Below, one piece after another: positions 7,296 through 22,493 of a stretch of 64,000 nucleotides of DNA (position 1 is the stretch's first letter; each line of letters begins with the position of its first letter). The position numbers and the translations under genes were made by a program. The DNA is from Bacteroidota bacterium (lineage in GTDB: Bacteria > Bacteroidota > Bacteroidia > Chitinophagales > Chitinophagaceae). The DNA is taken from contig JAFDXN010000031.1 of the NCBI GenBank assembly GCA_018267915.1, positions 248,001 through 312,000 on the forward strand, written 5' to 3'. A model generated the notes under the pieces. It saw only the letters and a program-made list of their open reading frames with translations, had not been told where the DNA came from and ran no database searches.

Positions 7296-8501
7296 TTAAG
7301 CCTGCAGGATAACGAATGCACCGACGGTGTTATTCGTAACGGGATCTACAAGGATACCGCGGCCATTTTCAGGCAGCGTGGCCGTATGGTCCCATGCCAG
7401 GGCTTTCTGCATACTGATACCGACCCTTGCAAACTGGTTGGCTGTAAGGGGTTCTTTGTCTGAATATTTCTCAAGGGTATCGATATCGACTTTGAACTTT
7501 AAGTCGCTGACGATGCATTCTGTTTCTGCGGTGTTGATGCGCAGGATGTAGGTTTTCTGAAGGTCGAGAGCAGAAGAACTGTCCATCCAGCAAAGGTCGG
7601 CGTCGAAGCTGTCGCTTGTCAAAGGGATATCCCGGGCATGCGAGATGATATCTCCTCTTTTTAGTATAATACCCTCCTGCAGGGTGATGCTGATATTATC
7701 ACCGGCATGAGCTACCTCAACATTATCGTAATTGTGGATGATGTTGCCTATAGTGGCAGCCTGGCCGGACGGGTGGATCAGTATTTTGTCCCCACTATGC
7801 AGGGTGCCTGAAAGTATCTTGCCTGCGAACGTGTTGTCGTCGATCCTGTATTGAAGGCACAATCTCAAGCCTGCATATTGATGCATAGGCGGCTTATAAG
7901 TTTCCAGCAATTCGAGCAAGGCGGGGCCGATGTACCAAGGCGTCTTTGGCGAGAGTGTGATCACGTTATCGCCTTGCAATGCACTGATGGGGATGAATGT
8001 GATATTGTGAAGATCGAGCTTCGCGGCTATTTGCAGGTATTCTTCTTTGATACGCTCATATACATCCTGCGAATAATCGCTAAGGTCCATTTTGTTGATG
8101 GCCACAACCACCTTGCCCAGTTTCAAGAAGGAGGCTACCATCGAATGTCTGCGCGTTTGTGCTGTGATGCCGTTTTGAGCATCTATAAGGATGATCATTA
8201 CATCGACATTGGAGGCACCAGTTACAAGGTTGCGGGTGTACTCGAAATGGCCGGGAGCATCAGTGATGATGAACTTGCGGTGGGAGGTGGAGAAATATTT
8301 ATAGGCTACGTCGATGGTTATTTTCTGTTCGCGTTCAGCCCGGAGCCCATCGGTAACATGTGCCAGGTTGAGGCCTTCATCGCCTGAGATCGTTTCAAGG
8401 ATATCGGATTTAATATTCCCGGTATCGTAGAGCAGCCTGCCGGTCAATGTGCTCTTGCCATCGTCCACGCTGCCTGCTGTTGTGAATCTTAAAATGTCCA
8501 T
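7296..8501 (-). CDS. cysN: Sulfate adenylyltransferase subunit 1 (GTPase)
   Basis: 401 residues, close to the short CysN form of Bacteroidota. CysN is the regulatory GTPase of ATP sulfurylase: it couples GTP hydrolysis to formation of adenosine 5'-phosphosulfate (APS) by CysD. The G1 loop GSVDDGKSTL is at residues 11-20, the G3 motif DAPGH and the G4 motif NKMD follow, and the C-terminal half has EF-Tu-like beta-barrel domains. No APS kinase domain is fused at the C-terminus; that activity is encoded by the gene at 9557. cysN lies downstream of cysD on the same strand, 44 bases apart, in a region containing a TTCAAAAGTCAAAA-type repeat. The neighbours gmd, fcl and a sulfotransferase suggest that the APS feeds PAPS-dependent sulfation. 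Confidence 0.93.
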   Translation of the reverse strand: MDILRFTTAGSVDDGKSTLTGRLLYDTGNIKSDILETISGDEGLNLAHVTDGLRAEREQKITIDVAYKYFSTSHRKFIITDAPGHFEYTRNLVTGASNVDVMIILIDAQNGITAQTRRHSMVASFLKLGKVVVAINKMDLSDYSQDVYERIKEEYLQIAAKLDLHNITFIPISALQGDNVITLSPKTPWYIGPALLELLETYKPPMHQYAGLRLCLQYRIDDNTFAGKILSGTLHSGDKILIHPSGQAATIGNIIHNYDNVEVAHAGDNISITLQEGIILKRGDIISHARDIPLTSDSFDADLCWMDSSSALDLQKTYILRINTAETECIVSDLKFKVDIDTLEKYSDKEPLTANQFARVGISMQKALAWDHTATLPENGRGILVDPVTNNTVGAFVILQA

Positions 8502-8545: not shown

Positions 8546-9439
8546 TTAGAAATATCCTTTCAATTTCCTGTCTTCCATAGCGGCATCGGATATTTGATCG
8601 TCGATGCGGGTGGCGCCTCGCTCGCTGATGGGTGAAGCCTCAATTTCGGCTATTATATCATCCACAGTTTGCGCCTGCGATTCGATGGCTGCCGTGCATG
8701 TCATGTCGCCCACGGTGCGGTAGCGTACTGTAGTATTCACCACCTCATCGTTGATATCGGGTGTCACGTATTCAGACACTGCCACCCATCGGCCCTGGAA
8801 AACGATGCAATCGCGCTTGTGGGCAAAATAGATGGATGGCAGCGCGATATGCTCGCGTTTGATGTATTGCCAAATGTCGAGTTCCGTCCAGTTGCTGATG
8901 GGGAACGCCCTGACATTTTCGCCCTCCCTGATCCTGCCATTGTACAGGTCCCAAAGCTCCGGGCGCTGGTTGTGTGGCTGCCAGGCGCCTGAGGGGTCGC
9001 GGAAGGAGAAGATGCGTTCTTTGGCCCTGGCTTTTTCCTCATCGCGGCGGCCACCGCCTATGCAGGCGTCGAAGCCAAATTCCCTGATCGCATCCATAAG
9101 GGTGTAAGACTGCAGCGCATTGCGGCTGGGAAATTTCCCTTGCGGGTCCGGCAGGTTCTTTTCCCGAATGGTATCTTCTACTTTTCGCACTATCAGCTGC
9201 GCATTTATTTTTTCTACCAGCGCATTGCGGAACCGAAGCGCCTCCGGGAAGTTGTGGCCCGTATCGATATGCATTACAGGGAAGGGCAGCGGTGCGGGAT
9301 AGAACGCTTTAAGCGCCAGGTGAATGAGCACTGTAGAGTCTTTACCCCCCGAGAAGAGCAGTACAGGTCTTTTAAATTGACCTGCCACCTCGCGGAATAT
9401 ATAGATAGCTTCAGCTTCGAGGATGTCCAGGTAATTCAT
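8546..9439 (-). CDS. cysD: Sulfate adenylyltransferase subunit 2
   Basis: CysD is the catalytic ATP-pyrophosphatase-type subunit of ATP sulfurylase; it makes APS from ATP and sulfate together with CysN. The PP-loop SGGKDST is at residues 30-36 and the family signatures GGRRDEEKARAKER and FPISNWTELDIWQYI are present. The frame also allows a TTG start at 9457, but the ATG at 9439 (MNYLDILEAEAI) matches the usual CysD N-terminus and is chosen; length is then 297 residues. It is transcribed divergently from cysC, whose ATG is 117 bases away, so the intergenic space may hold promoters for both arms of the island. Confidence 0.94.
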   Translation of the reverse strand: MNYLDILEAEAIYIFREVAGQFKRPVLLFSGGKDSTVLIHLALKAFYPAPLPFPVMHIDTGHNFPEALRFRNALVEKINAQLIVRKVEDTIREKNLPDPQGKFPSRNALQSYTLMDAIREFGFDACIGGGRRDEEKARAKERIFSFRDPSGAWQPHNQRPELWDLYNGRIREGENVRAFPISNWTELDIWQYIKREHIALPSIYFAHKRDCIVFQGRWVAVSEYVTPDINDEVVNTTVRYRTVGDMTCTAAIESQAQTVDDIIAEIEASPISERGATRIDDQISDAAMEDRKLKGYF

Positions 9440-9556
9440 TGTTCGAAAAGCGTGCAAAAGCGGATAAATGCTCTATTTTTATGTGATTGTAAAGATAATA
9501 CAATAGGCTTTAACGGATTGTAGGGCGCGCAGGCCTGTTAAATAGGATAAATAATA

Positions 9557-10300
9557 ATGATTGTACAGTTTTGTGGTCTTTCAGGAGCAGGAAAGTCGAC
9601 CTTATCGGGTAAGGTAAGGGATATATTGCTTGAAAAGGGCTACGATGTGGAGGTAATAGATGGTGACGAGTACCGGAAGAACGTGTGCAAAGACCTGGGC
9701 TTCAGCAAGGAAGACAGGAAAGAAAATATCCGCAGGCTGGCCTTTATAGGCAGTAAGTTCTCAGCGCATGGGGTCATTGTCTTTCTCTCTGCCATTAATC
9801 CATATGATGATGTGCGGCGCGAAGTAGCGGCAGCCTATCCGCACGTGAAAACGGTGTTCGTAGACTGCAGCCTGGAGGAGTTGATGAAACGGGACACGAA
9901 GGGCCTTTATAAAAAGGCGATGCTGCCGGAAGGGCACCCGGAACGGGTGAACAACCTGACCGGAGTCAATGACCCTTTCGACCGGCCGGAGGCGCCGGAT
10001 CTGCTGATAGAGTCGCACAAGGTGAGCGAGGAAGCAGCAACGAAAATGCTGGCCGACTTTATCATTACGCACTTGCCGGGTCATACACGCAACTACAGGC
10101 GGAAGGAAAGCCACAAAAGGAGTATTATGAAAGCGATATCTTACCGGTTACTGGGCAGCCTGGCTACCATTGCGATATCCTATGTGTTTACAAAAAAGGC
10201 CGATATTGCTCTAGGCATAGGAGGATTGGACCTGGTGAGCAAGATAGTGCTGTATTACCTGCATGAGCGGGTATGGCACAACATAAAATACGTTGAGTAA
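9557..10300 (+). CDS. cysC: Adenylylsulfate kinase fused to a DUF2061 membrane domain
   Basis: Residues 1-~178 are APS kinase, which phosphorylates APS to PAPS, the universal sulfate donor: P-loop GLSGAGKST (7-15), [16 protein letters not shown], and the NPYDDVRR segment. Residues ~187-247 form a DUF2061 domain ([20 protein letters not shown] and [20 protein letters not shown]), a small two-helix membrane domain that often occurs near sulfur-activation genes. The fusion would place PAPS synthesis at the inner face of the membrane, near the sulfotransferase or an envelope glycan; that is inference. It begins a run of tightly spaced genes: gmd starts 5 bases after its stop. Confidence 0.9.
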
Positions 10301-10305
10301 AAGAA

Positions 10306-11382
10306 ATGAAGACCGCATTAATAACGGGCATTACCGGGCAGGACGGGGCCTATCTTACGGAGCTGTTGCTCGGTAAGGGCTACGAGGTACATGGCATCAA
10401 GCGCCGCACATCGCTTATCAATACCCACCGTATCGACCACCTGTACGAAGGCCCGCAGCTGGAAGACAGGCAGATGATCATGCACTATGGCGACATGACC
10501 GATTCGTCGAACCTCATTGCCCTGGTGCAGAAGATACAGCCCGACGAGATATACAACCTCGCTGCCATGAGCCACGTGCTGGCCAGCTTCGATCTGCCGG
10601 AATATGTAGCCAATGTGAACGGGCTGGGTACGCTAAGGTTGCTGGAGGCGATCCGCCTGCTGGGACTGGAGCAAAAAACGAAATTTTACCAGGCCTCGAC
10701 ATCGGAACTCTTTGGCAGGGCCACCGGTGAAAAGCAAAATGAACAGACCCTCTTCTATCCACGATCACCATACGGAGTAGCGAAACTCTACGCGCACTGG
10801 ATAACGGTGAACTACAGGGAGGCCTATAATATTTTCGCCTGTAACGGTATCCTGTTCAACCATGAGAGCCCGGTGAGGGGTGAAACATTTGTAACAAGGA
10901 AAATAACACGCGGCATCGCCAAAATAATAGTGGGCCTGGAAGATAAGTTATGGCTGGGCAACCTGAACGCACAGCGCGATTGGGGGCACTCGAAAGACTA
11001 CGTAAGGGCGATGTGGATGATGATGCAGCAGCCGGTGCCCGACGACTATGTTATAGCGACCGGTATTACAACATCGGTGAGGGATTTTGTGACCAAGGCC
11101 TTTGCCTGTGCCGGAGTTGAAATTGCTTTTGAGGGGCACGGAGAGGACGAAGTAGCTATCGTAACTAAGGTACTGAATGACGCCTGCCGCCTGTCGGTAG
11201 GTGATGAAGTAGTAGCCGTGGATAAAAGGTACTTCAGGCCAACCGAGGTGGATACACTGATAGGCGACGCCACAAAAGCAAAGCAAAAACTTGGCTGGGA
11301 GCCTGTATATACACTTGACGAAATAATAAAGGAAATGCTGGAGGCTGATATGGAGAATGTGCACAAAAAGCAGGTGATATAA
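10306..11382 (+). CDS. gmd: GDP-mannose 4,6-dehydratase
   Basis: 358 residues, normal for the family. Converts GDP-D-mannose to GDP-4-keto-6-deoxymannose, the first step to GDP-L-fucose. Short-chain dehydrogenase Rossmann motif [10 protein letters not shown] at the N-terminus, an NLAAMSHV segment, and the catalytic YxxxK in [12 protein letters not shown]; the [20 protein letters not shown] signature typical of Gmd is present. The stop and the next start share one base (TAATG), so gmd and fcl are translationally coupled and supply the same nucleotide sugar. Confidence 0.96.
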
Positions 11383-12320
11383 TGCAGGCAAACAGTAAAA
11401 TATATGTAGCCGGGCACACAGGCATGGTAGGGTCGGCCATAGTGCGGGCATTGAAGCAGCAGGGTTTTAATAACCTGGTCACTTGTCCGTCGGAGGAGCT
11501 GAACCTTTGCCGCCAGCAGGAAGCCGAAGACTTCTTTGATACTGAAAAGCCGGACTACGTATTCGTAGCAGCTGCCAGGGTCGGGGGCATACACGCCAAC
11601 AGCGTTTACAAAGCGCAGTTCCTTTACGAGAATTTGACGATCGCGGCTAATACGATTCATGCGGCGTATAAATCGGGTGTAAAAAAATTACTTTATCTCG
11701 GCAGCTCCTGCATATACCCCAAGTTTGCCGGGCAGCCTATCAAGGAGGAATATTTACTGACAGGTGCACTGGAACCTACCAACGAAGGTTATGCGTTGGC
11801 CAAGATCGCGGGTATCAAGCTGTGCGAAACCTACTGCGACCAATATGGCTGCAATTTCATAGCTGCCATGCCCTGTAGCATCTACGGCTATGGCGACAAT
11901 TACCACAACCAGAATGCGCATGTAATACCCATGCTGATGCGAAAATTTCACGAAGCTAAGATCATGAATAGTCCTGAAGTAACACTTTGGGGCACCGGCA
12001 CACCGCTACGCGAGTTCATGTTCGTCGACGACCTGGCAGATGCCTGCTTGTTCCTGATGCAGGGTTTCGACGAGCAGCTTTTTATAAATGTGGGGACCGG
12101 AGAAGAAATATCCATAGCCGGGCTGGCGGAACTGATGAAAGATGTTACCGGCTACGAAGGTAAGCTACGCTTCGACACAACGATGCCCGACGGCACACCC
12201 CGCAAGCTCCTCGACAGCAGCAGGTTGCATGCCTTGGGCTGGCAGCACAAAACAAGCCTCGAGGAGGGGCTTAGGAAGGCCTATAAACAATTCACAGAAG
12301 CAACTGTAAGAGAAAAATAA
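11382..12320 (+). CDS. fcl: GDP-L-fucose synthase
   Basis: 312 residues, typical length. Epimerises and reduces GDP-4-keto-6-deoxymannose to GDP-L-fucose with NADPH. N-terminal Rossmann motif GHTGMVGSA (residues 8-16), the [10 protein letters not shown] segment, the SSCIYP motif and YxxxK in [10 protein letters not shown] match Fcl/WcaG. It overlaps gmd and the sulfotransferase gene by one base on each side, so the three enzymes are very probably made together. With gmd it makes GDP-fucose for a fucose-containing glycan. Confidence 0.96.
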
Positions 12321-13192
12321 TGGATACCCCTTTAGGATATAATACGGGCAACCTGTACAACGACAAACTGGTTCCTCCTGTCGGCAGCTATTTCCACCTT
12401 ACCTGGCGCTGGCGAATGGATCCCAGCTTTTTTATCATGGGAGTGCAGAAAGGAGGCACGTCAACGCTGTGCTACTACATGGTGCAACACCCCCAGGTAA
12501 TAACGCCACAGAACAAGGATGTTTTCTTTTTTAATAACACACTGAACTACAATAAAGGGATCAAATGGTATAAAGCGCATTTCGCGCTGAAAGCTTATAA
12601 GCTGTACCATGAACTTAAAAAAGGTTCGAAGAATGCCGTAACATTTGATGGCACTCCCGACTATTTCGATGTTGCGGAAGCGCCTGAAAGACTCTATAAG
12701 CATTACCCGAACGGTAAGCTTATCCTGCTCTTAAGAAACCCCATACACCGCGCGTACTCCTGTTACCAGTCATCGAAGCGCTTTGGTTTTGAGAACCTGA
12801 GCTTCGAAGCGGCGATGGAACTGGAAGAGCAGCGGTTGCAGGACGAGAGCAAATATGCACCCATGCACCCTTATCATAGTTACGTGCATGAGCGCCTTAC
12901 CTGCAAAAAAAGGGGCAGATACATTCTCTATATCAAAAAATGGAAGGAACTATTTGGAGACAATCTCCTCGTGCTCAAAACCGAAGACCTTGCAGAGCAC
13001 ACGCAGGAGCAACTGGACATTATACTGGATTTCCTTGGTCTCGATCCCTATAAAAACTTTGACCTGACCAAGCAAAACCTGGGCAACTACTCGGGCATGA
13101 AGCCTGAAACTTACCGCATGCTAAGGGAATACTATGAGCCCTACAATCAGCAACTCTATGAATATCTTGGCCGTGATTTTGGTTGGGACTAA
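12320..13192 (+). CDS. PAPS-dependent sulfotransferase
   Basis: 290 residues with a single sulfotransferase domain. The 5'-phosphosulfate loop GVQKGGTSTL is at residues 41-50 and the 3'-phosphate-binding segment LLLRNPIHRAYSCYQSSKR at about 130-150, the two PAPS contacts expected in this superfamily. There is no signal peptide or membrane segment, so it should act in the cytoplasm on a lipid-linked or nucleotide-activated glycan intermediate. The one-base overlap with fcl and the nearby APS/PAPS genes make a sulfated, probably fucose-containing, polysaccharide or lipid-linked oligosaccharide the most plausible product. Acceptor and linkage cannot be read from sequence. It ends 4 bases inside the convergent gene. 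Confidence 0.85.
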   Translation: MDTPLGYNTGNLYNDKLVPPVGSYFHLTWRWRMDPSFFIMGVQKGGTSTLCYYMVQHPQVITPQNKDVFFFNNTLNYNKGIKWYKAHFALKAYKLYHELKKGSKNAVTFDGTPDYFDVAEAPERLYKHYPNGKLILLLRNPIHRAYSCYQSSKRFGFENLSFEAAMELEEQRLQDESKYAPMHPYHSYVHERLTCKKRGRYILYIKKWKELFGDNLLVLKTEDLAEHTQEQLDIILDFLGLDPYKNFDLTKQNLGNYSGMKPETYRMLREYYEPYNQQLYEYLGRDFGWD

Positions 13193-14130
13193 TCTACGAA
13201 GAAGAACTTGATCAGTACTTCAAGGAAGCGGTTCCTGAGATCAGGATGATAGCCGCTGTCATCAATACGTTTGGTCCTTTTGAAGCCGCGACGCTTGTCT
13301 GCTTTGAAATTGGTGGGATAGTGCAGTGTGGGGTTCATCAGCCAGATAAAATGGCGCATCAGAAAGGGCTCCCACGACCAAGGCAGTTTGGCGGCATCTA
13401 AATGGGGTTCCAGTTCCCCGACCAACTCATAAAACAGGTCGTAGTTATACTTAATGATACGTTGGTTAGCCCATCCGTTATTCAGCTCCATACCCAGGTG
13501 AAAGGTCAGGTGCTTATCCAGCATCAATACCGGTTTTTCGGCAAAAGTGAACATGTTATAAAACAGGTCATTACCAAAAGGCGGGGCACCAATACAGATA
13601 TCTTTCTTTATGAATTTTGGCCAAAGCTCGCGCTTGAATACGAAAGTATCGTACCCAGAGTGCGACTTGCCCGATTCGGCATACATCAGGTCGAGGTCGG
13701 TCTCGTGAAGGAACTTATTATAAAGGCGCCTGCGGTTAATGACGATCGCGTCGTGGCCCTCGTTGATATATTTTTCTACGACCGTATAAAAAAAAGGCAT
13801 CATAGTGATATCGAGGGCGGTGTAGATTAGATATTCTGCTGTAGAGTTATCATACAGCGTCTGCATAATATCTGTAATGAAGGGGAATTTGAATTTTTCG
13901 CCCTGCAGCACATGTGTGAGATTGCGGGTAAGCGGAGGTAATTGGGTAAACTCAGCGGGAACAAAGCTGTTGTTAGCCCTCTCGTTTATGGTATATAAGG
14001 AAACGTCATTTGGCCTCCCGAAATACTCCCGGGCCCTGATGCAGGAGTTGAAAGTAACAGCCTGTGCAATGAAAAGGTTTTTCTTTTCATCTTCAGTTAC
14101 AGGATTGATCACGTGGGCAAAAGAAGCCAT
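13189..14130 (-). CDS. Unrecognised protein, possibly a glycosyltransferase of the polysaccharide locus
   Basis: 313 residues, soluble, no signal peptide. I do not recognise the family. The middle part has features of a GT-A fold: a hydrophobic strand ending in an acidic residue (AEYLIYTALDITMMPFFY), a later basic segment (AIVINRRRLY) and a conserved-looking HSGYDTFVFKREL segment, as in enzymes that read a nucleotide-sugar. It lies between the sulfotransferase and the Dlt-like operon on the opposite strand, so a role in the same surface glycan is possible. Its 3' end overlaps the sulfotransferase stop by 4 bases. Confidence 0.55.
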   Translation of the reverse strand: MASFAHVINPVTEDEKKNLFIAQAVTFNSCIRAREYFGRPNDVSLYTINERANNSFVPAEFTQLPPLTRNLTHVLQGEKFKFPFITDIMQTLYDNSTAEYLIYTALDITMMPFFYTVVEKYINEGHDAIVINRRRLYNKFLHETDLDLMYAESGKSHSGYDTFVFKRELWPKFIKKDICIGAPPFGNDLFYNMFTFAEKPVLMLDKHLTFHLGMELNNGWANQRIIKYNYDLFYELVGELEPHLDAAKLPWSWEPFLMRHFIWLMNPTLHYPTNFKADKRRGFKRTKRIDDSGYHPDLRNRFLEVLIKFFFVD

Positions 14131-14253: not shown

Positions 14254-16725
14254 GTGTTCCAAAACTTGTTCCCTGAAATAACTGTTGAGAAACAGCATGC
14301 TAAAGCTCCGTTGACCTATGTAGTGATGTATAGCCTGGTGTTTCTTGCAGTGATGTATGTGCTCAAGACCCTCAATATCGCGGCTTCATCCGGCATCACC
14401 GATCTAACAATTATTTTCATCCCCGGTTTCGTTATTCATTCGCTGGCCCCGGTGAGGTACCGGCCTTTTATTTACTGTCTCATTTTTATTGCCAGCCTTT
14501 TTTATGTGTTTAGCTGGCTAACAGCAGTTATCATCATTTTCTTTCTTTCCATAACAGCGTATGTGATCTACAGCGGCCACAAGCTGTGGTTGAAATATTT
14601 ATATCTCATACTACTGGGTATTGCTTTTGTGTTCTTGCGGAATTCCTTTCTGCTCCGCATGCCAAGGCTGAATATGAGCATACCGTTCGTTGCGGCCATA
14701 CTTATGTTTCGTGTCATCATACTGATGTATGAAGTAAAGCACAACAAGCTGCCGGAGAACCGCTGGCTGAAGCTCTCCTACTTTTTTTGCTTTCCTAACC
14801 TTGCCTTCCTCTTTTACCCCATCATAGATTACAAGACCTATATGAGGGGATACCTTGCGGAGCCCTTTGAGACGTTGTGCAATAAGGCACTGTGGTATAT
14901 GATATCCGGTATCATGTTCCTTAGCGTGTATAAGATACTAGGCTTTTACCTCGATGTATCCTTCATGGAGGTGCATGACATTACGGGACTTATCGTGTAC
15001 ATGTTTTCCAAGTACATCCTGGTCTTTAAAATGATCGGGTTGTTGACCCTTGGCCTGAGTTTTCTCTGCATGTTCGGCTTCAATATGCCTATGCTTTTCG
15101 GCAACTTTTTTGTGGTTACATCATTCAACCACTACTGGCAACGGGTTAATATTTATTGGAAGGATTTTATCGTTAAGATCATTTACTACCCGTTATACTT
15201 CAGGTACCGGAAAAAATTGAAAAGCGCCACGGCCTTGCTGGTATTTGTCGCGGTGCTATCGTCATGGTTTTTCCATATGTACCAGCAGTTCTGGATATCG
15301 GGGCTGGTATTTTCCCGCACACAGGATTTTCTTTATTGGTTGATACTGGCCATCCTGGTGGCCGCCAATGTGCACCTTGATACCAAAGCGCCCAAAAAGA
15401 AAAAAGAAGACATGACAATGGCGCAGTGCATCGTGATGGGCATACGTTTCGTTATCGTGTTCGGCACTATGCTGGTTTGCTGGGTGCTCTGGAACTCGGA
15501 CGATGTGTCAAGCTTCAGCTACGTTATGTCGCGCGGCTGGCATGCCAGTGCGCAGCAGGTGCTGTCGGTCGTTACCTGTCTCGTTTTGATCATTACCTGT
15601 TTTGCCCTTTACCTGCGTATCAGCAGTAAAAAGGCGCTGGTGGTGCAGGCGCAAACACGTAGTCGCACGGTATTTTCACTAGTCATGTTGTGCCTGCTAT
15701 GTATCGTCAGCATTTTCAAACCTCAACTTGAAAAGAACCAATTGGTAGCCATCATATCATCGAAGAACGAAACCAACCGGGACGAGCGGAACAAAAAAGA
15801 GATCAACTATTACTCAGCCGTTACAGGAGTAAAGAATGACTGGGAAGTGGGTTTGTCCTGGGGAGATAACCGCACGATATTCGGGCAAATAGGCTCATTT
15901 TCCAACGACCTGATATTCCAGGAACTGAAGCCCAACCAGCACACTACGTTTAAAGGACAGGAAGTGATCTCGAATAACTATGGACTGAGGGACAAGGACT
16001 ATCCGCTGGTGAAAGGCCCGGGAACTTACCGGATCGCTTTGTTGGGAGGATCATATGAGATGGGTTCGGGTGTTGCAGGTAAGGACGTTTATGAGCAACT
16101 GGTGGAAGACAGCCTCAATAAACATCTCGGTGGTCACCCGAAGATAGAGATCATCAATTTCGGCATGGGCTCCTTTACCACGGTTCCCCAAATGGAGCTG
16201 CTGCGGACCAAAGTGCTCAAATTTCATCCTGATGAGGTAATAGAAGTATATCATACCGATGAGCTATCGCGCGCCACACGTTTTTTTGCGAGATACATCA
16301 GCAATGGGGTGGACCTGAAATATGATTACCTCCTGGACGTTAAAGCCAGGTCGGGCGTAAAACAGTCGATGAGTAACGAGGAAATAATCGCCAGGTTGAA
16401 CCCGTATATGCGCGATATCACCGTTTGGTGTTATCAGCAGATGGATTCCATTTGTAAGGCCAACCACTTTAAAGAAGTGGCGATATTCCTGCCCAGCACC
16501 AATGATTTGTTTACAGAAGAAAAGGTGAATGACTGGAAGGATATGTTAAAAGGTACTGGTTTTGAGCCATTTGTGCTACGTAACGTGTATGACGGGTATG
16601 AACATAGCAAGATCGCGGTGTCGGATGAGGACCCGCATCCTAATACGTTGGGGCATCACTTAATTGCAAATAAATTATTTAATTTGCTCACAGATTCAAC
16701 TACTCATATAATTCCGCTAAAGTGA
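14254..16725 (+). CDS. MBOAT acyltransferase fused to an SGNH-hydrolase-like domain (DltB+DltD-like)
   Basis: 823 residues, GTG start. Residues ~20-490 are polytopic. FNHYWQRVNIYWKDF (291-305) followed by YYPLYFRYRKK matches the FWRRWHISLS...YIPL block of AlgI/DltB-type MBOAT enzymes; H341 (in SSWFFHMYQQFW) occupies the place of the WHG histidine, and WVLWNS (~410) fits the later WVFFRA block. Residues ~590-823 are SGNH-like: block I LLGGSYEMGSG with Ser600, and a C-terminal DPHPNTLGHHL block. MBOAT proteins move acyl groups across or at the membrane, in DltB from a carrier protein. The stop overlaps the carrier-protein start (GTGA). Fusion of the two activities parallels DltB plus DltD. Acceptor unknown; an exopolysaccharide or envelope glycan is inferred. 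Confidence 0.75.
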   Translation: MFQNLFPEITVEKQHAKAPLTYVVMYSLVFLAVMYVLKTLNIAASSGITDLTIIFIPGFVIHSLAPVRYRPFIYCLIFIASLFYVFSWLTAVIIIFFLSITAYVIYSGHKLWLKYLYLILLGIAFVFLRNSFLLRMPRLNMSIPFVAAILMFRVIILMYEVKHNKLPENRWLKLSYFFCFPNLAFLFYPIIDYKTYMRGYLAEPFETLCNKALWYMISGIMFLSVYKILGFYLDVSFMEVHDITGLIVYMFSKYILVFKMIGLLTLGLSFLCMFGFNMPMLFGNFFVVTSFNHYWQRVNIYWKDFIVKIIYYPLYFRYRKKLKSATALLVFVAVLSSWFFHMYQQFWISGLVFSRTQDFLYWLILAILVAANVHLDTKAPKKKKEDMTMAQCIVMGIRFVIVFGTMLVCWVLWNSDDVSSFSYVMSRGWHASAQQVLSVVTCLVLIITCFALYLRISSKKALVVQAQTRSRTVFSLVMLCLLCIVSIFKPQLEKNQLVAIISSKNETNRDERNKKEINYYSAVTGVKNDWEVGLSWGDNRTIFGQIGSFSNDLIFQELKPNQHTTFKGQEVISNNYGLRDKDYPLVKGPGTYRIALLGGSYEMGSGVAGKDVYEQLVEDSLNKHLGGHPKIEIINFGMGSFTTVPQMELLRTKVLKFHPDEVIEVYHTDELSRATRFFARYISNGVDLKYDYLLDVKARSGVKQSMSNEEIIARLNPYMRDITVWCYQQMDSICKANHFKEVAIFLPSTNDLFTEEKVNDWKDMLKGTGFEPFVLRNVYDGYEHSKIAVSDEDPHPNTLGHHLIANKLFNLLTDSTTHIIPLK

Positions 16726-16985: not shown

Positions 16986-16991
16986 GTTTTG

Positions 16992-18467
16992 ATGCGGCTT
17001 GATGAAATAATAAATGCCTGTATAAAACAGGGAGATGCTCAGCAAGCGCTAAAGGACACTTCAGGAAATTCAAGGTCATACCTGCAGTTGCAGGACGAGA
17101 TAGCAGCTCACGTGCTGCAAATCAGTTCGCGCTTACAAAGCGACAAAAAGAACGTGCTTGCGATAGTAAGCGAACGCAATATTTTCCTGCCCGCTTTGCT
17201 TTATGCGGTTGTGAACAGCGGTGCGGCTTATGTGCCCATAGACCACCGCTTTCCCGCCGAAAGAATAAGCACCATTGTGAATGAAGCGAGGCCTAACGCA
17301 GCGATAGTGCAGAATAAGTACAGGGAAATTTTTGAATCTGCATGCGACTGTGAAATAGCCAGCTCCCTGGCGCTGAGCGAAGAACATACATTATTGGTGC
17401 TGGCGCAGGAACCCGTCGGGATTCCGGCAGACGCAGTCTACATATTATACACTTCCGGGTCAACAGGCGTCCCCAAAGGAGCGATACATACGCATAGCAG
17501 CGTAGTGAGCTTTCTACAGTGGTGCAGCGACGCTATCGACTGTAGCGATGCCAGCACTTTTATTTCCATATCGCCACTGCAATTTGATCTTTCCGTTTTC
17601 GACCTGTTTTTCCCTCTTTTCAGGACCGGGACGCTGCTTTTGGTAAAGGAGGCTGAACTGGCCAATCACCGCATGTTGGCGCAGATCATCGCGGGGCAGG
17701 GAGTGAACTGCGTATATGCAACACCGTCTTTCTTCCGGCTTTTATGCACCGGGGGCAAGCTGCAGCAATATAGCTTTGATCATGTAAGTCACTTGTTGCT
17801 CGCCGGCGAGGCGCTGCAATGGCAGTTGCTGCACGACATGAAACCCTATTTTACTAAGGCCCAGTGTTACAATCTATATGGGCCTACCGAAACAAATGTG
17901 TGCTGCTATTATAAAGTAAATGAGGCTGACGAAAGGCTTTACCCCGTAGCAGTTCCCATCGGTAAGCCATGCGGTGAAACAAAGATCCACCTTGAGGCCA
18001 GCGACGATCCGTCGATGCCGGAGCTTTGGGTAGCCGGAGGAACGCTGATGCATGGCTATGTTGCAGGGCCTGCCTCATTCCGGATGCTTGACGACGTACG
18101 CTATTATAACACCGGTGATCTCGTGCAACAGGAAGCAGACGGCAACCTGGTATTTTGCGGTCGCCGCGATAGAATGATCAAAAAAAACGGCTTCAGGGTA
18201 GAACCTGCAGAAGTAGAGAAGTACATCAGGCAGCTTGAAGGTGTGCATAATGCTGTCGCCGCGCCGGTGGTGGTGAAAAATTCAATGAAACTTGTTATCT
18301 TTATACAGTCGGATAAAGTCTATAACCTGTTGGAAATTAAGCAATACTGCCTAAGTAAGCTTCCATACTACATGGTGCCCGACGACGTGATAATGGTACA
18401 GGATCTGCCTCTCAATCTGAACAATAAAACCGATATAGGTCAACTGGTCGATAACTATGTTAAGTAA
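16992..18467 (+). CDS. Free-standing amino acid adenylation enzyme, predicted prolyl-carrier ligase
   Basis: 491 residues, an AMP-forming adenylation domain without fused carrier or condensation domain, like DltA or PltF. A3 motif YTSGSTGVPKG (153-163), A5 LYGPTET (295-301), A7 YNTGD (372-376), A8 GRRDRMIKKNGFRVEP, A10 Lys479. Aligning by eye to the GrsA pocket gives D199, L200, F203, Y242, L269, A271, L295, V303, C304, K479 (D-L-F-Y-L-A-L-V-C-K). This resembles what I recall for free-standing prolyl adenylases of pyrrole pathways and is unlike a D-alanine pocket; it needs a database check. A TTG at 16989 precedes the ATG at 16992; the ATG is chosen. It overlaps the next gene by 11 bases. Confidence 0.82.
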   Translation: MRLDEIINACIKQGDAQQALKDTSGNSRSYLQLQDEIAAHVLQISSRLQSDKKNVLAIVSERNIFLPALLYAVVNSGAAYVPIDHRFPAERISTIVNEARPNAAIVQNKYREIFESACDCEIASSLALSEEHTLLVLAQEPVGIPADAVYILYTSGSTGVPKGAIHTHSSVVSFLQWCSDAIDCSDASTFISISPLQFDLSVFDLFFPLFRTGTLLLVKEAELANHRMLAQIIAGQGVNCVYATPSFFRLLCTGGKLQQYSFDHVSHLLLAGEALQWQLLHDMKPYFTKAQCYNLYGPTETNVCCYYKVNEADERLYPVAVPIGKPCGETKIHLEASDDPSMPELWVAGGTLMHGYVAGPASFRMLDDVRYYNTGDLVQQEADGNLVFCGRRDRMIKKNGFRVEPAEVEKYIRQLEGVHNAVAAPVVVKNSMKLVIFIQSDKVYNLLEIKQYCLSKLPYYMVPDDVIMVQDLPLNLNNKTDIGQLVDNYVK

Positions 18468-19608
18468 GGCACTGCCCGATTATAAGGCTATCTATGACGC
18501 ATACTTCTCTTTTGCGCAGCAGCACTTCAGCGCCGCGGACATGGTGCATGCTGATCGCGAAGGCATTTTCAACGATACGCTTTGGCATAAAGCCGGCGAA
18601 ATGTCGCTGCATGGCTTGCCTGTTGATGAGGCATCGGGTGGGCGCGGTTATAGTGCCATGCAAAGCTGTGCAGCCATCGAAGGCTTTGCAAAAGGCTGCA
18701 CCGACAACGGGCTTACTTTTTCGATCCTCGCCCATGCCGCTGCCAGTACTGTTCCGTTGTACCTGCATGGCAGCGACGGGCAGAGGAGAGAATTGCTGCC
18801 ACTATTAGCGCAGGGCAAAGTGATCACCTGCAACGCGATCACGGAAGCGGGTTCCGGTTCAAATGTATACGAAATGTCCACCCTCGCCGAAAGAACGGCG
18901 GACGGATACACAATAAAGGGCGGCAAATGCTACATCACAAACGCCCCTGTGTCCGACTACGTACTGTTATATTGTATGACAGATGTGACGAAAGGATTTT
19001 TCGGTGGCGTAAGTGCTTTCATCCTCCCGGCTGATACGGATGGGCTGCAGCGCGGCCCGGTAAAGAGTAAAATGGGGCTCCGCACCGTGCATATGTCCGA
19101 AATAATGCTCGACAATGTTGCCGCGGCCGAAGCTCAGCTATTGGGCAAGGAGGGTGCAGGCGCAGTGATTTTTAACGAAAGCATGGTATGGGAGAAGACG
19201 ATGATGTGCGCCATGAACCTGGGCCAGCTTGAACGGGTGTACGAAAATACACTGGCCTTCTGCAAAAAACGCAAACTGAAAGGCAAGGCACTCCTGAACC
19301 TGACCAATATAGCTCACGACATGGCCGATGTAAAGGTCGCTATTAACGCGGCACGCGGTCTGGTATATGATGCCGCCTGTGCCATTGACATGCGCGCGAA
19401 GGACGCACTGCAAAGATCATCTGTCGCCAAATGTTTTGTGACAGAAAATGCAGTAAAATGCATACAGAAAATGCAGGTGATCTACGGTGGTGCCGGTTAC
19501 CTGGCTGAAAACAATATAGAGCGTGAATACCGGGATATGTATGCGGCATTGCTTTACTCCGGCACTGCCGATATACAGCGTAATATAATTATAGGACATT
19601 CAAACTGA
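18457..19608 (+). CDS. Acyl-CoA-dehydrogenase-family flavoenzyme, predicted carrier-bound prolyl oxidase
   Basis: 383 residues with the whole acyl-CoA dehydrogenase fold: N-terminal helical part, TEAGSGSNVYEM flavin/substrate segment (~129-140), and a C-terminal helical domain with VIYGGAGYLAENNIEREYRD. The usual catalytic glutamate of the C-terminal loop (YEGT in MCAD) is Ser368 in LYSGT, but Glu246 (MVWEKTMM) sits in the helix used by isovaleryl-CoA dehydrogenase. In PltE/RedW-type enzymes this family oxidises carrier-bound proline to pyrrole-2-carboxyl. The position next to a carrier protein and a predicted prolyl adenylase makes that the leading hypothesis; an ordinary branched acyl-CoA dehydrogenase is the alternative. 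Confidence 0.8.
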   Translation: MLSKALPDYKAIYDAYFSFAQQHFSAADMVHADREGIFNDTLWHKAGEMSLHGLPVDEASGGRGYSAMQSCAAIEGFAKGCTDNGLTFSILAHAAASTVPLYLHGSDGQRRELLPLLAQGKVITCNAITEAGSGSNVYEMSTLAERTADGYTIKGGKCYITNAPVSDYVLLYCMTDVTKGFFGGVSAFILPADTDGLQRGPVKSKMGLRTVHMSEIMLDNVAAAEAQLLGKEGAGAVIFNESMVWEKTMMCAMNLGQLERVYENTLAFCKKRKLKGKALLNLTNIAHDMADVKVAINAARGLVYDAACAIDMRAKDALQRSSVAKCFVTENAVKCIQKMQVIYGGAGYLAENNIEREYRDMYAALLYSGTADIQRNIIIGHSN

Positions 19609-19614
19609 TGACGA

Positions 19615-21069
19615 ATGGAAGGGAACAGTAAATTGTACGATTTTATTATTATCGGGTGTGGCCCTACCGGTGCTGCGGCTGCTACTTACCTGACGCGCCT
19701 GGGCTATTCTGTAATGGTCTTTGAGCGCACGAAGTTTCCGCGCCAGCACGAGGGCGAATCTTTGCTGCCCTTTTGCTACCCGCTTTTCAAGGAACTGGGT
19801 GTATATGAGGAAATGAAGACCAAATTTGTAAAGAAGCCGGGTGTGCGTTTCCTCAATTATACCGACACCGCGAGTGCAACATATTGTTTTCAGAATATCA
19901 TTTCCGATGAAAGTAAATTGTCCTTTCACGTGCTGCGCTCCGAGTTCGACCTGATGCTGATGAACAACGCCATTAAGAACGGTGCGGAAGTAATGCAGGA
20001 AACGAAAGTGGAAAAGGTGGACCTGCAGCGGCCGGACAAGATAGTGGATGTGGTAACCGTTGACACCGCGGGTAACAGGACAGAGTGGAAAGCAAAGTTT
20101 TTGATAGATGCCAGCGGCCAGGATACCTTCCTGGCAAAACGCTCGGGTGCTAAGACAGCCTATAAAGAACTAGACAGGACCGCATTCCTCACACATTGGG
20201 AGGACGGTGCTTACACTGATGGTATAGATGTTGGCTTGCTGCAACTCGTATACCTGAATGATAAAAAAAGCGGATGGTTCGGCATACAGCCTATTGGTAA
20301 AAACAGGCTTAGCGTGGGCCTTGTTATCAACAGGCAATACCTGAAGGAGCAAAAGAAATTATTGCTTGATAAGGGCGTCAAAGATTGGCAGATGGCCTTC
20401 TACCGGCAGGAGGTGGAGGAGTGTGCTTTTACAAAAAAAATACTTGCAGATGCACGGATTGTACAACCCTTGCTGATCGTCTCTGACTACTCTTATTACA
20501 CTGATAAGCCTTGGGGAGACAACTATGCACTGCTGGGCGATGCCGGCAAGTTCCTTGATCCGATATTCGCGTCGGGTGTGTACCTAGGTATGAACAGCGC
20601 CAAGATGTTTGCAGAGGCAATACATACTAAACTGTCGCTCGACGTTAATGCCGGTGATGCGCATCTGGAAAATGCCTATAAACATATCACGGGCGCTTAC
20701 GACCTGGTTGAGAAGTTCGTGCACATCTTCTACGATCCTAATTCCTTCAATCTTGCAGAGGTGGACCCGAGCTCCGAATCGAAGTATAAGAATTATGAGA
20801 CAGCCTTCTCGCTGGTACATTACCTGCTGGCGGGAGACTTCTTCAACAATTATGACAAATACTCCGGTTTCCTGGATATGCTTAGAAATCCCGATCAGTT
20901 CCAGCGCTGGAAGAGCCTGCTGCAAAGCAGGCCCAGCAAGAACAATGCTACCTGCGACAGCAGCTACAACGAGATCTTTGGTGACATAATTGATGCACTT
21001 GTGCCGCCTCCTCCCGGCTTACAGGAGCAGAGCGAGCTTATTTTAAAGGGTGCGGGCAACGAAGCTTAA
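19615..21069 (+). CDS. FAD-dependent monooxygenase of the flavin halogenase family (halogenation uncertain)
   Basis: 484 residues. GxGxxG FAD motif IIIGCGPTGAA at 11-21, an RQHEGESLLP segment (43-52) and GDAGKFLDPIFASG (308-321) match PltA-like flavin-dependent halogenases, in which the flavin makes hypohalous acid and a lysine guides it. A lysine pair (K73-K74, VKKPG) is present near the expected site. The halogenase signature WxWxIP is degenerate: W221 is followed by F-G-I-Q-P, so the second Trp and the Ile are missing. It may halogenate the carrier-bound ring, hydroxylate it, or do another oxidation. It starts 6 bases after the dehydrogenase stop and converges on the next gene with a 4-base overlap. 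Confidence 0.78.
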   Translation: MEGNSKLYDFIIIGCGPTGAAAATYLTRLGYSVMVFERTKFPRQHEGESLLPFCYPLFKELGVYEEMKTKFVKKPGVRFLNYTDTASATYCFQNIISDESKLSFHVLRSEFDLMLMNNAIKNGAEVMQETKVEKVDLQRPDKIVDVVTVDTAGNRTEWKAKFLIDASGQDTFLAKRSGAKTAYKELDRTAFLTHWEDGAYTDGIDVGLLQLVYLNDKKSGWFGIQPIGKNRLSVGLVINRQYLKEQKKLLLDKGVKDWQMAFYRQEVEECAFTKKILADARIVQPLLIVSDYSYYTDKPWGDNYALLGDAGKFLDPIFASGVYLGMNSAKMFAEAIHTKLSLDVNAGDAHLENAYKHITGAYDLVEKFVHIFYDPNSFNLAEVDPSSESKYKNYETAFSLVHYLLAGDFFNNYDKYSGFLDMLRNPDQFQRWKSLLQSRPSKNNATCDSSYNEIFGDIIDALVPPPPGLQEQSELILKGAGNEA

Positions 21070-21494
21070 TCGTTAAGCGGTACCGGTGGTGTAAGATATC
21101 CCTCTGCGGAGCGCTGACGGCCGATCTTTTCATATATCTCAGGGTCATCCGGGGCTATCGTAGCAAGCCCGTCCACGTACCTGTTGAACATGCAGAATAT
21201 AGCGGCGATAAGCACGGTGTCGTGTATCTCCTTTTCGCTCGCACCTTTTGATTTAGCATGATCAATATCTGCAGTGCTCACCAGTTTGCCATCCTGTTGC
21301 ACTTTCGCGGCTATGCGCAATAGCGCTTTCAGTTTGTCGCTGATGTCGGCGTTTTCCGGGTCTTGCTGCACCTGCTTTACCAGCTCCGGCTTATCGCCCA
21401 GCTGAAACCTTGCTATCGATGCATGCGTAGTAGCGCAATATTTACAGGTATTGAGTGTCGATACGTAGGTAGCTATCAGTTCGCGCTCACCTAC
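21066..21494 (-). pseudogene. Truncated carboxymuconolactone decarboxylase / AhpD-family gene
   Basis: Read on the minus strand, an open frame runs from about 21494 to the stop at 21066 and contains GERELIATYVSTLNTCKYC, with the CxxC of AhpD-like peroxidase/decarboxylase-fold proteins, then THASIARFQLGD and a second helical half. The N-terminal ~50-60 residues usual for this family are missing: upstream of the GERE residues the frame runs into sequence that on the other strand encodes dnaE2 and ends at a stop within ~25 bases. No ATG exists before the CxxC; the first start, a GTG at 21371, lies after it. So the gene is 5' truncated at the junction at ~21490. Confidence 0.75.
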
Positions 21495-22493
21495 CCGGAT
21501 GTGTTTGCTGCGGCATTATTGAACAGCCAGCCAATGGGTTTTTACCAGCCGGCACAGATAGTGGGCGATGCGAAAAAGCATGAAGTAGAAGTGCTGCCTG
21601 TGGATATTAATTATTCGCACTGGGATAATACACTTGAAGAAAAAACGGAGCAGCAAAGATATTGCCCGCTGCGATTGGGTTTCCGGCAGGTGAAAGGACT
21701 GAGAGAAGAGGATATGATGATACTGCTTGCGGGGCGCGAAAAGGCGTTTAAGAACATCAATCAGTTGCGGGATATCGGTGTTTCACCGACAGCGCTTGAG
21801 CGACTGGCCGACGCAGATGCCTTCCGGTCGATAGGGCTGGACAGAAGACAGGCACTTTGGGAAGTCTCGGCATTGAATGATCTGCCCAACGGGATGTTTA
21901 CAGGACAATCGGCTGCGAAGACCTCGGAGCAGGAAATACAACTACCCGACATGCGCCTGTCGGAACATGTGCTGCATGATTACAGTGCCTTGTCACTTTC
22001 CCTGAAGGCGCACCCGGTAAACTTTGTGCGCGGGCAACTGGATGCCCTTAACGTATCGGCGACAAGCAGGCTGTTGGAAAAAGGAGATGGTGCTTACGTA
22101 AAGGTAGCAGGCCTGGTATTGGTGCGGCAAAGGCCGGGTACTGCTTCGGGCATCTGCTTTATTACCATTGAAGATGAAACCGGCAGTGCTAACCTGGTGG
22201 TGTTTGAAAAGCTTTTTGAACAATACCGCAAAGAGATATTGTACTCGAGACTCCTGATGGTGGAGGGTACGCTACAGGTAGAAAAGGAGGTGGTGCATGT
22301 GATCGTGAATCGCTGCCATAACCTGACAGGCCTGATCAGCAGGCTGACAGAAGTAGAGATAAAAGACCCGCCCGTACAGACCTTATCCCGGGCGGATGAG
22401 AGGGATGGAGATGCAAAGACGCCTATAAAAGATGCCAGGGTGCTAAAGGTGGTGCAGGGCGAGATATTCCACGGGGGAAGAAACTTCAGGTAG
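21490..22493 (+). pseudogene. dnaE2: 5'-truncated error-prone DNA polymerase III alpha subunit (DnaE2/ImuC)
   Basis: From about 21490 the frame matches only the C-terminal third of DnaE2: AAALLNSQPMGFYQPAQIV, then LPVDINYSHWDNTLE, a helix-hairpin region and an OB-fold with GLVLVRQRPGTASGICFITI, ending in HGGRNFR. Full-length DnaE2 is about 1050 residues; here ~335 remain and the catalytic palm and PHP domains are gone. The open frame extends left to 21363, but those codons are antisense to the AhpD-family gene and do not resemble DnaE2. DnaE2 is the translesion polymerase of the ImuA-ImuB-DnaE2 mutasome; imuA and imuB are not in the window. A non-functional remnant, or one side of an assembly chimera. 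Confidence 0.82.

Follow-up and report, generated by a model that had tools for sequence, protein, structure and literature searches.

We analyzed a window of 64,000 nucleotides from a Bacteroidota bacterium and found a prolyl-type adenylation enzyme within a cassette that also encodes a free-standing carrier protein, a prolyl-PCP dehydrogenase, a flavin-dependent halogenase-family protein and, upstream, a predicted membrane acyltransferase. Judged from the sequences, the cassette is likely to be a Dlt-like pathway in which a pyrrole made by type II NRPS enzymes replaces D-alanine and is put on a surface glycan. The adenylation enzyme itself is best explained as one part of this larger, carrier-fed acyl transfer system with a donor made from proline. 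Our searches of open-licence papers turned up no account of such a cassette.

Table 1. Cassette genes and neighboring genes, with positions in the 64,000-nucleotide window.
Feature	Position	Strand	Evidence
CysN (PAPS supply)	7296-8501	-	NCBIfam above cut-off
CysD (PAPS supply)	8546-9457	-	NCBIfam above cut-off
CysC (PAPS supply)	9557-10300	+	NCBIfam apsK above cut-off
GDP-mannose 4,6-dehydratase (sugar supply)	10306-11382	+	NCBIfam gmd 557.5 bits, above cut-off
GDP-L-fucose synthase-like (sugar supply)	11382-12320	+	NCBIfam GDPFucSynFcl 472 bits, cut-off 500
Sulfotransferase	12320-13192	+	Pfam Sulfotransfer_1 1.8e-15
Conserved GT-A-like protein (probable glycosyltransferase)	13189-14130	-	No Pfam match
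MBOAT-SGNH fusion, 823 aa (start codon uncertain)	14254-16725	+	Predicted structure
Free-standing carrier protein, 87 aa	16722-16985	+	Phosphopantetheine Ser41 in MDSI
Prolyl-type adenylation enzyme	16992-18467	+	Code DLFYLALVCK
Prolyl-PCP dehydrogenase (acyl-CoA dehydrogenase fold)	18457-19608	+	Putative base Glu246
Flavin-dependent halogenase-family protein	19615-21069	+	Best PDB CmlS 7.7e-43, PltA 8.7e-36

Pocket code of the adenylation enzyme

The reading frame of the adenylation enzyme is unbroken from an ATG at position 16992 (with an in-frame TTG at 16989) to the stop at 18467, giving a protein of 491-492 aa whose Pfam match is AMP-binding (E 1.1e-54). We placed the binding pocket through the conserved motifs FDLSVF (235, 236, 239), VYATPS (278), LLLAGE (299, 301), NLYGPTETNVC (322, 330, 331) and NNKTD (517), where the numbers are what we take to be the GrsA positions. 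The code obtained in this way, from residues 199, 200, 203, 242, 269, 271, 295, 303, 304 and 479, reproduces the ten residues D-L-F-Y-L-A-L-V-C-K proposed in an earlier note on this DNA.

We compared this code with 40 further A-domain loci, every one of them located via a different protein. All ten residues are identical in nine of these loci, and D-L-x-Y-x-A-L-V-C is kept in 38, with K wherever this position is readable (three sequences end before it). The exceptions are L071 (DLHYHALVVK) and L090 (DIFYLALVCK). Because the code recurs across loci that were found through another protein, it is no chance code. NRPS adenylation domains picked up in the same searches have different codes. Among the 18 genomes of the order that carry the acyltransferase, G561 (DIFYLAFVCK) and G776 (DLFYIAWVCK) deviate, so the prolyl-type code is not fully fixed.

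Comparison with structurally characterized adenylation enzymes

Searching the open-licence literature for the strings DLFYLALVCK and DLLYLALVCK, we found no paper and no published table of such codes, and the comparison was therefore made through PDB alignments. Among single-domain PDB chains, the two leading matches to the pocket region of the cassette homologue L085 are L-proline--[L-prolyl-carrier protein] ligases, 6o6e with 130.6 bits and 7thn with 82.1 bits, versus at most 58.6 bits for DltA-type D-Ala ligases. At the nine pocket positions visible in these alignments, 6o6e reads DLLYLALVC and 7thn reads DLFYIAWVC, a pattern that recurs in one genome of the order (G776). A profile built from 18 cassette A domains ranks the same structures in the same order (6o6e 462.7 bits, 7thn 373.1), followed by TycA (370.5), GrsA (345.7) and the best DltA (339.4). 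For the window enzyme, the profile and the L085 pocket region alike, 6o6e is the top single-domain PDB chain; the multidomain LgrA and 8xjz outrank it because two domains are summed (for 8xjz, in the comparisons with the window sequence and the profile).

In a tree of A domains (82 tips from 83 rows; the gap filter or a duplicated name removed one), a split with a support of 0.993 separates the prolyl-type domains from 24 others. L090 and L184 have DI codes and were counted as prolyl on the strength of the acyltransferase in their genomes.

Two other readings of the enzyme were rejected. The pocket code, the profile scores and NCBIfam all speak against a D-alanine ligase (DltA); in NCBIfam, the enzyme stays below both DltA cut-offs (236.2 versus 559.85 bits and 245.2 versus 476 bits). 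As for a classic NRPS, the A domain of the window stands on its own and its neighbors are not NRPS genes. Taken together, sequence comparison supports an adenylation enzyme built for proline activation. The earlier note had called the code prolyl-like and unlike a DltA pocket, and both views stand.

Carrier protein, dehydrogenase and flavoprotein

The start of the carrier gene overlaps the stop of the acyltransferase gene, and the dehydrogenase gene overlaps the 3' end of the adenylation gene. The carrier scores below cut-off for both ACP_for_OlsHI (63.4 bits), its top NCBIfam model, and DltC (21.2 bits). Its Ser41 is present in 38/38 rows, and the source genome contains a phosphopantetheinyl transferase gene.

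The top PDB match of the dehydrogenase is 4irn, a prolyl-ACP dehydrogenase (E 2.1e-70), followed by 6cxt (a butyryl-CoA dehydrogenase entry) and 5zw0, an L-prolyl-[peptidyl-carrier protein] dehydrogenase. These relatives support the earlier suggestion that the adjoining dehydrogenase fits proline as substrate. Glu246, kept in 33/35 rows, presumably occupies the place of the helix base, as in AnaB. The best NCBIfam models are PigA (326.6 bits, cut-off 500) and RedW (275.5 bits, cut-off 650), both under their cut-offs. PigA and RedW act in pyrrole formation; AnaB, the nearest solved relative, is an enzyme of the anatoxin pathway, and for this reason the oxidation might end before the pyrrole.

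The flavoprotein was examined for WxWxIP and FxxPxxxSG, which we take to be motifs of flavin-dependent halogenases. Over 17 aligned rows, the window protein retains the Lys of KKPG, and the active-site Lys region and FxxPxxxSG are present. WxWxIP is degenerate (GWFGIQP), and similarly so in the sister species, and we therefore name the protein only halogenase-family. The motif is intact in the cassette members L049-L052 and L071, and in L100. The sister species G002 and G003 have two and three halogenase-family copies, and across the 80 acyltransferase loci described below a halogenase-family gene (at least 300 bits) is found at ten, all of them Bacteroidota-type.

Downstream, within 21066-22493, a carboxymuconolactone-decarboxylase-like gene lacks its 5' end and is cut near 21505; its uncut orthologues measure 191 aa (L024) and 186 aa (L025). 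Beyond the break, the DNA encodes the C-terminal part of an error-prone DNA polymerase (positions 749-1040 of the 1047 in the NCBIfam profile). This point is a deletion or an assembly junction.

A predicted MBOAT-SGNH acyltransferase

The product of the gene upstream of the carrier has no match in Pfam or NCBIfam. Its AlphaFold model, computed with an alignment of 60 homologues, reaches a pLDDT of 88.2 and a pTM of 0.87, and predicts that a DltB-like MBOAT and an SGNH domain are joined in one chain. The best Foldseek matches are 6bug, which we take to be DltB, the DltB structure 8jem and HHAT, followed by GDSL/SGNH hydrolases. In the model, the DltB-like half (residues 42-426, with His341) is followed by two more membrane helices, a GYY linker (Tyr519-Tyr520) and an extracytoplasmic SGNH half (Ser600, Asp793, His795). 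VIA-align superposes residues 42-426 on DltB with a Z score of 19.5 (359 residues, rmsd 4.7) and residues 534-812 on CgnD with a Z score of 21.0 (244 residues); we call CgnD SGNH-fold since the GDSL esterases match this half of the protein too. His341, Ser600, His795 and Tyr519-Tyr520 are invariant in 60/60 homologues, and Asp793 is kept in 57/60. This gene, which the earlier note did not take into account, indicates the probable destination of the proline-derived group.

Two to four paralogues of the fusion, some in tandem, occur in several genomes (L031, L083, L100 and others), which suggests several acceptors supplied by one donor pathway.

The two tyrosines follow the two extra helices, at a local pLDDT below 50. 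As described in parts of PMC12148441, other MBOAT proteins have a shuttle Tyr in this position after the extra helices, within an FxYxxF motif in DltX and PatA; the motif in the cassette protein is GYYExL, not FxYxxF.

Co-occurrence of the adenylation enzyme and the acyltransferase

Of 395 sampled genomes of the phylum, the same four (G000, G086, G307 and G417) gave hits for the full-length acyltransferase (E<1e-90) and for the A domain (E<=1e-55), although in G086 and G307 their genes lie far apart or on separate contigs. Eighteen of 396 sampled genomes of the order, from five families, carry the acyltransferase, and all 18 belong to the 41 genomes that have an A domain at E<=1e-105. The chance of such an overlap is 3e-20 on the assumption of independent genomes, which they are not, so the value is indicative only. 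The 18 genomes are the 17 top A-domain scorers together with G054, in which a contig end truncates the A domain; this exact match of sets relies on a score gap (457.7 versus 433.8 bits) noticed afterwards, in a search that scored only two to three candidates per genome. None of the codes in the other 23 A-domain genomes starts with DL (0/23), the near-prolyl ones being those of G550 (DILYLALVCK) and G706 (DILYIAAVCK). Within the genus, G002 and G003 carry both genes and G001 and G004 neither; loci L047 and L048 are the contigs already counted under G002 and G003 and are thus not independent of them.

Scanning GTDB contigs with an acyltransferase alignment yielded 263 relatives, of which 80 were kept. 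Genes at these loci were called by bit cut-offs (A 120, ACAD 80, PCP 40), and several Mesorhizobium loci scored as carrier-less probably have a carrier below the cut-off, as shown for L085 and L096. An A domain lies at 40 of the 80 loci. When only loci with at least 4 kb of flank on each side are counted, drawn from many phyla, the adenylation enzyme is present at 28/41. A genome-wide A-domain search covered 20 of the 40 loci without a nearby A domain: in 12 of 16 genomes with no A domain at the examined loci, a prolyl-type domain lies elsewhere (partial in one case). The remaining four (G452, G454, G455 and G459) have the acyltransferase and no prolyl-type A domain, so the acyltransferase family may use other donors too.

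The A-bearing loci come from Bacteroidota, Rhodothermota, alpha-, beta-, gamma- and deltaproteobacteria, Acidobacteria, Verrucomicrobia, Gemmatimonadetes and Anaerolineae. Metagenome bins account for many of them; Mesorhizobium, Methylomonas, Pseudothauera and Paraglaciecola are represented by named strains or isolates, and culturable bearers of the cassette include Mesorhizobium muleiense (L109), Methylomonas sp. SURF-2, Pseudothauera rhizosphaerae and Paraglaciecola arctica. Viral contigs searched with the A domain gave three matching stretches, none confirmed, and a plasmid search with the Mesorhizobium acyltransferase gave one record (Microvirga) with no annotated gene under the match.

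Four further loci of the order (L228, L229, L230 and L231) pair an A domain (DI[ML]YLGVQCK or DILYLALVCK) with an acyl-CoA dehydrogenase, lack the MBOAT-SGNH protein and adjoin apparent NRPS genes. By sequence, these pairs look like an uncharacterized NRPS family.

Neighboring genes and the acceptor

The cassette lies next to genes for sugar supply, PAPS supply and sulfation (Table 1). The GT-A-like protein (AlphaFold pLDDT 75.6) resembles ArnC, GtrB and DPMS in Foldseek at low TM (0.35-0.40) and is conserved next to the cassette at L024, L025, L049, L053 and L210-L212. Sulfotransferases and glycosyltransferases flank the cassette at L049 and L214, as do a flippase, glycosyltransferases and a sulfotransferase at the Mesorhizobium locus L085. 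Since sugar and sulfate genes, glycosyltransferases and a flippase surround the cassette, the likely acceptor is an extracytoplasmic glycan. In the window, the neighboring genes hint that this glycan is probably sulfated and possibly contains fucose.

In the window, a DUF2061 membrane domain is fused to the C terminus of the APS kinase. At L049 (1041-4136), two KAS III-like genes and one for a short-chain dehydrogenase lie near the cassette, next to genes for a GNAT and an aspartyl hydroxylase-like protein, and by eye a similar set is found at L052 (20500-22285). This set possibly provides a second acyl or amino-sugar modification.

Proposed pathway and alternatives

From these data, we infer the following route. 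The adenylation enzyme would activate L-proline and load the phosphopantetheine arm of the adjacent carrier protein, on which the dehydrogenase would convert prolyl-S-carrier to pyrrolyl-2-carboxyl-S-carrier. The halogenase-family flavoprotein would probably modify the pyrrole ring. The MBOAT half, through His341, would take over the carrier-bound acyl group on the inner side of the membrane, and the group would cross the membrane, perhaps via Tyr519 or Tyr520, to Ser600 of the protein's own SGNH half. The SGNH half would then esterify a glycan outside the cytoplasm, which in this bacterium is probably a sulfated and possibly fucose-containing polysaccharide.

This arrangement resembles the Dlt pathway of teichoic acid D-alanylation (DltA-DltC-DltB-DltX-DltD), in which an adenylation enzyme charges a small carrier with an amino acid and a DltB-like MBOAT and an SGNH protein come next. 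The cassette differs in its prolyl rather than D-Ala pocket, its additional dehydrogenase and halogenase-family genes, the combination of MBOAT and SGNH in a single chain with no clear DltX motif, and its presence in Gram-negative phyla. A prolyl adenylation enzyme, a free carrier, a prolyl-PCP dehydrogenase and sometimes a flavin halogenase also make up the type II NRPS pyrrole modules of pyoluteorin (PltF/L/E/A) and the prodiginines (PigI/G/A, RedM/O/W). Such modules supply PKS/NRPS lines for small molecules, whereas the partner in the cassette is a membrane acyltransferase. In the aminocoumarins clorobiocin and coumermycin, a pyrrole-2-carboxyl group is built on a carrier and then esterified to a sugar, as we propose for the cassette; there, however, the acyltransferases are cytoplasmic and the sugar belongs to a small molecule. 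PatA and PatB, which O-acetylate peptidoglycan, likewise use an MBOAT and an SGNH protein for transfer across the membrane, and parts of PMC12148441 describe them as two proteins with acetyl-CoA as donor and no carrier protein, in contrast to the fused, carrier-associated protein of the cassette.

The gene set of the cassette (A domain, PCP, dehydrogenase and halogenase-family protein) is typical of pyrrole natural products, and related A and ACAD pairs with other codes adjoin condensation-type NRPS genes, as judged by eye. The cassette might accordingly make a small diffusible halopyrrole, as the pyoluteorin and tetrabromopyrrole pathways do, with the acyltransferase being a bystander or transferring a different acyl group. 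We consider this very unlikely, since no thioesterase, ketosynthase or NRPS gene lies next to the cassette in the window, and the acyltransferase and the adenylation enzyme go together even when unlinked. Alternatively, the transferred group could be proline or dehydroproline itself, forming an aminoacyl ester that adds positive charge, like the D-alanine of teichoic acids. Besides the Dlt precedent and the kinship of the dehydrogenase to AnaB, three genomes of one family (G533, G543 and G561) have the dehydrogenase outside the operon. Each of these genomes nevertheless encodes a dehydrogenase that is 51-52% identical elsewhere (with no halogenase-family gene beside it within 4.1 kb), the best NCBIfam models of the window dehydrogenase are the pyrrole-forming PigA and RedW, and a ring-halogenating flavoprotein would require an aromatic ring. 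Transfer of an unaromatized group thus seems quite improbable to us.

The esterified pyrrole that we favor might also be placed on a surface lipid, glycolipid or protein rather than on a polysaccharide, and the ornithine-lipid ACP model that heads the carrier's NCBIfam matches below cut-off points in this direction. We regard such an acceptor as unlikely in view of the sulfotransferase, glycosyltransferase, nucleotide-sugar and flippase genes that surround the cassette.

Implications

Extended beyond the window, and held somewhat less firmly, our reading is that a Dlt-like system across many phyla (Bacteroidota, Proteobacteria including Mesorhizobium, Acidobacteria, Verrucomicrobia, Gemmatimonadota, Anaerolineae and others) probably esterifies exported glycans with proline-derived pyrrole-2-carboxylate, to which a ring modification, probably halogenation, is added in Bacteroidota. 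If so, a chemical group of antibiotics and pigments would commonly decorate the surface polysaccharides of bacteria, attached by a one-protein membrane acyltransferase whose member in the window goes unrecognized by Pfam and NCBIfam models. The Dlt principle would then reach beyond D-alanine, and hundreds of MBOAT-SGNH proteins (263 found) would gain a substrate and a partner. Aromatic, possibly halogenated glycans would be predicted in rhizobia and environmental bacteria.
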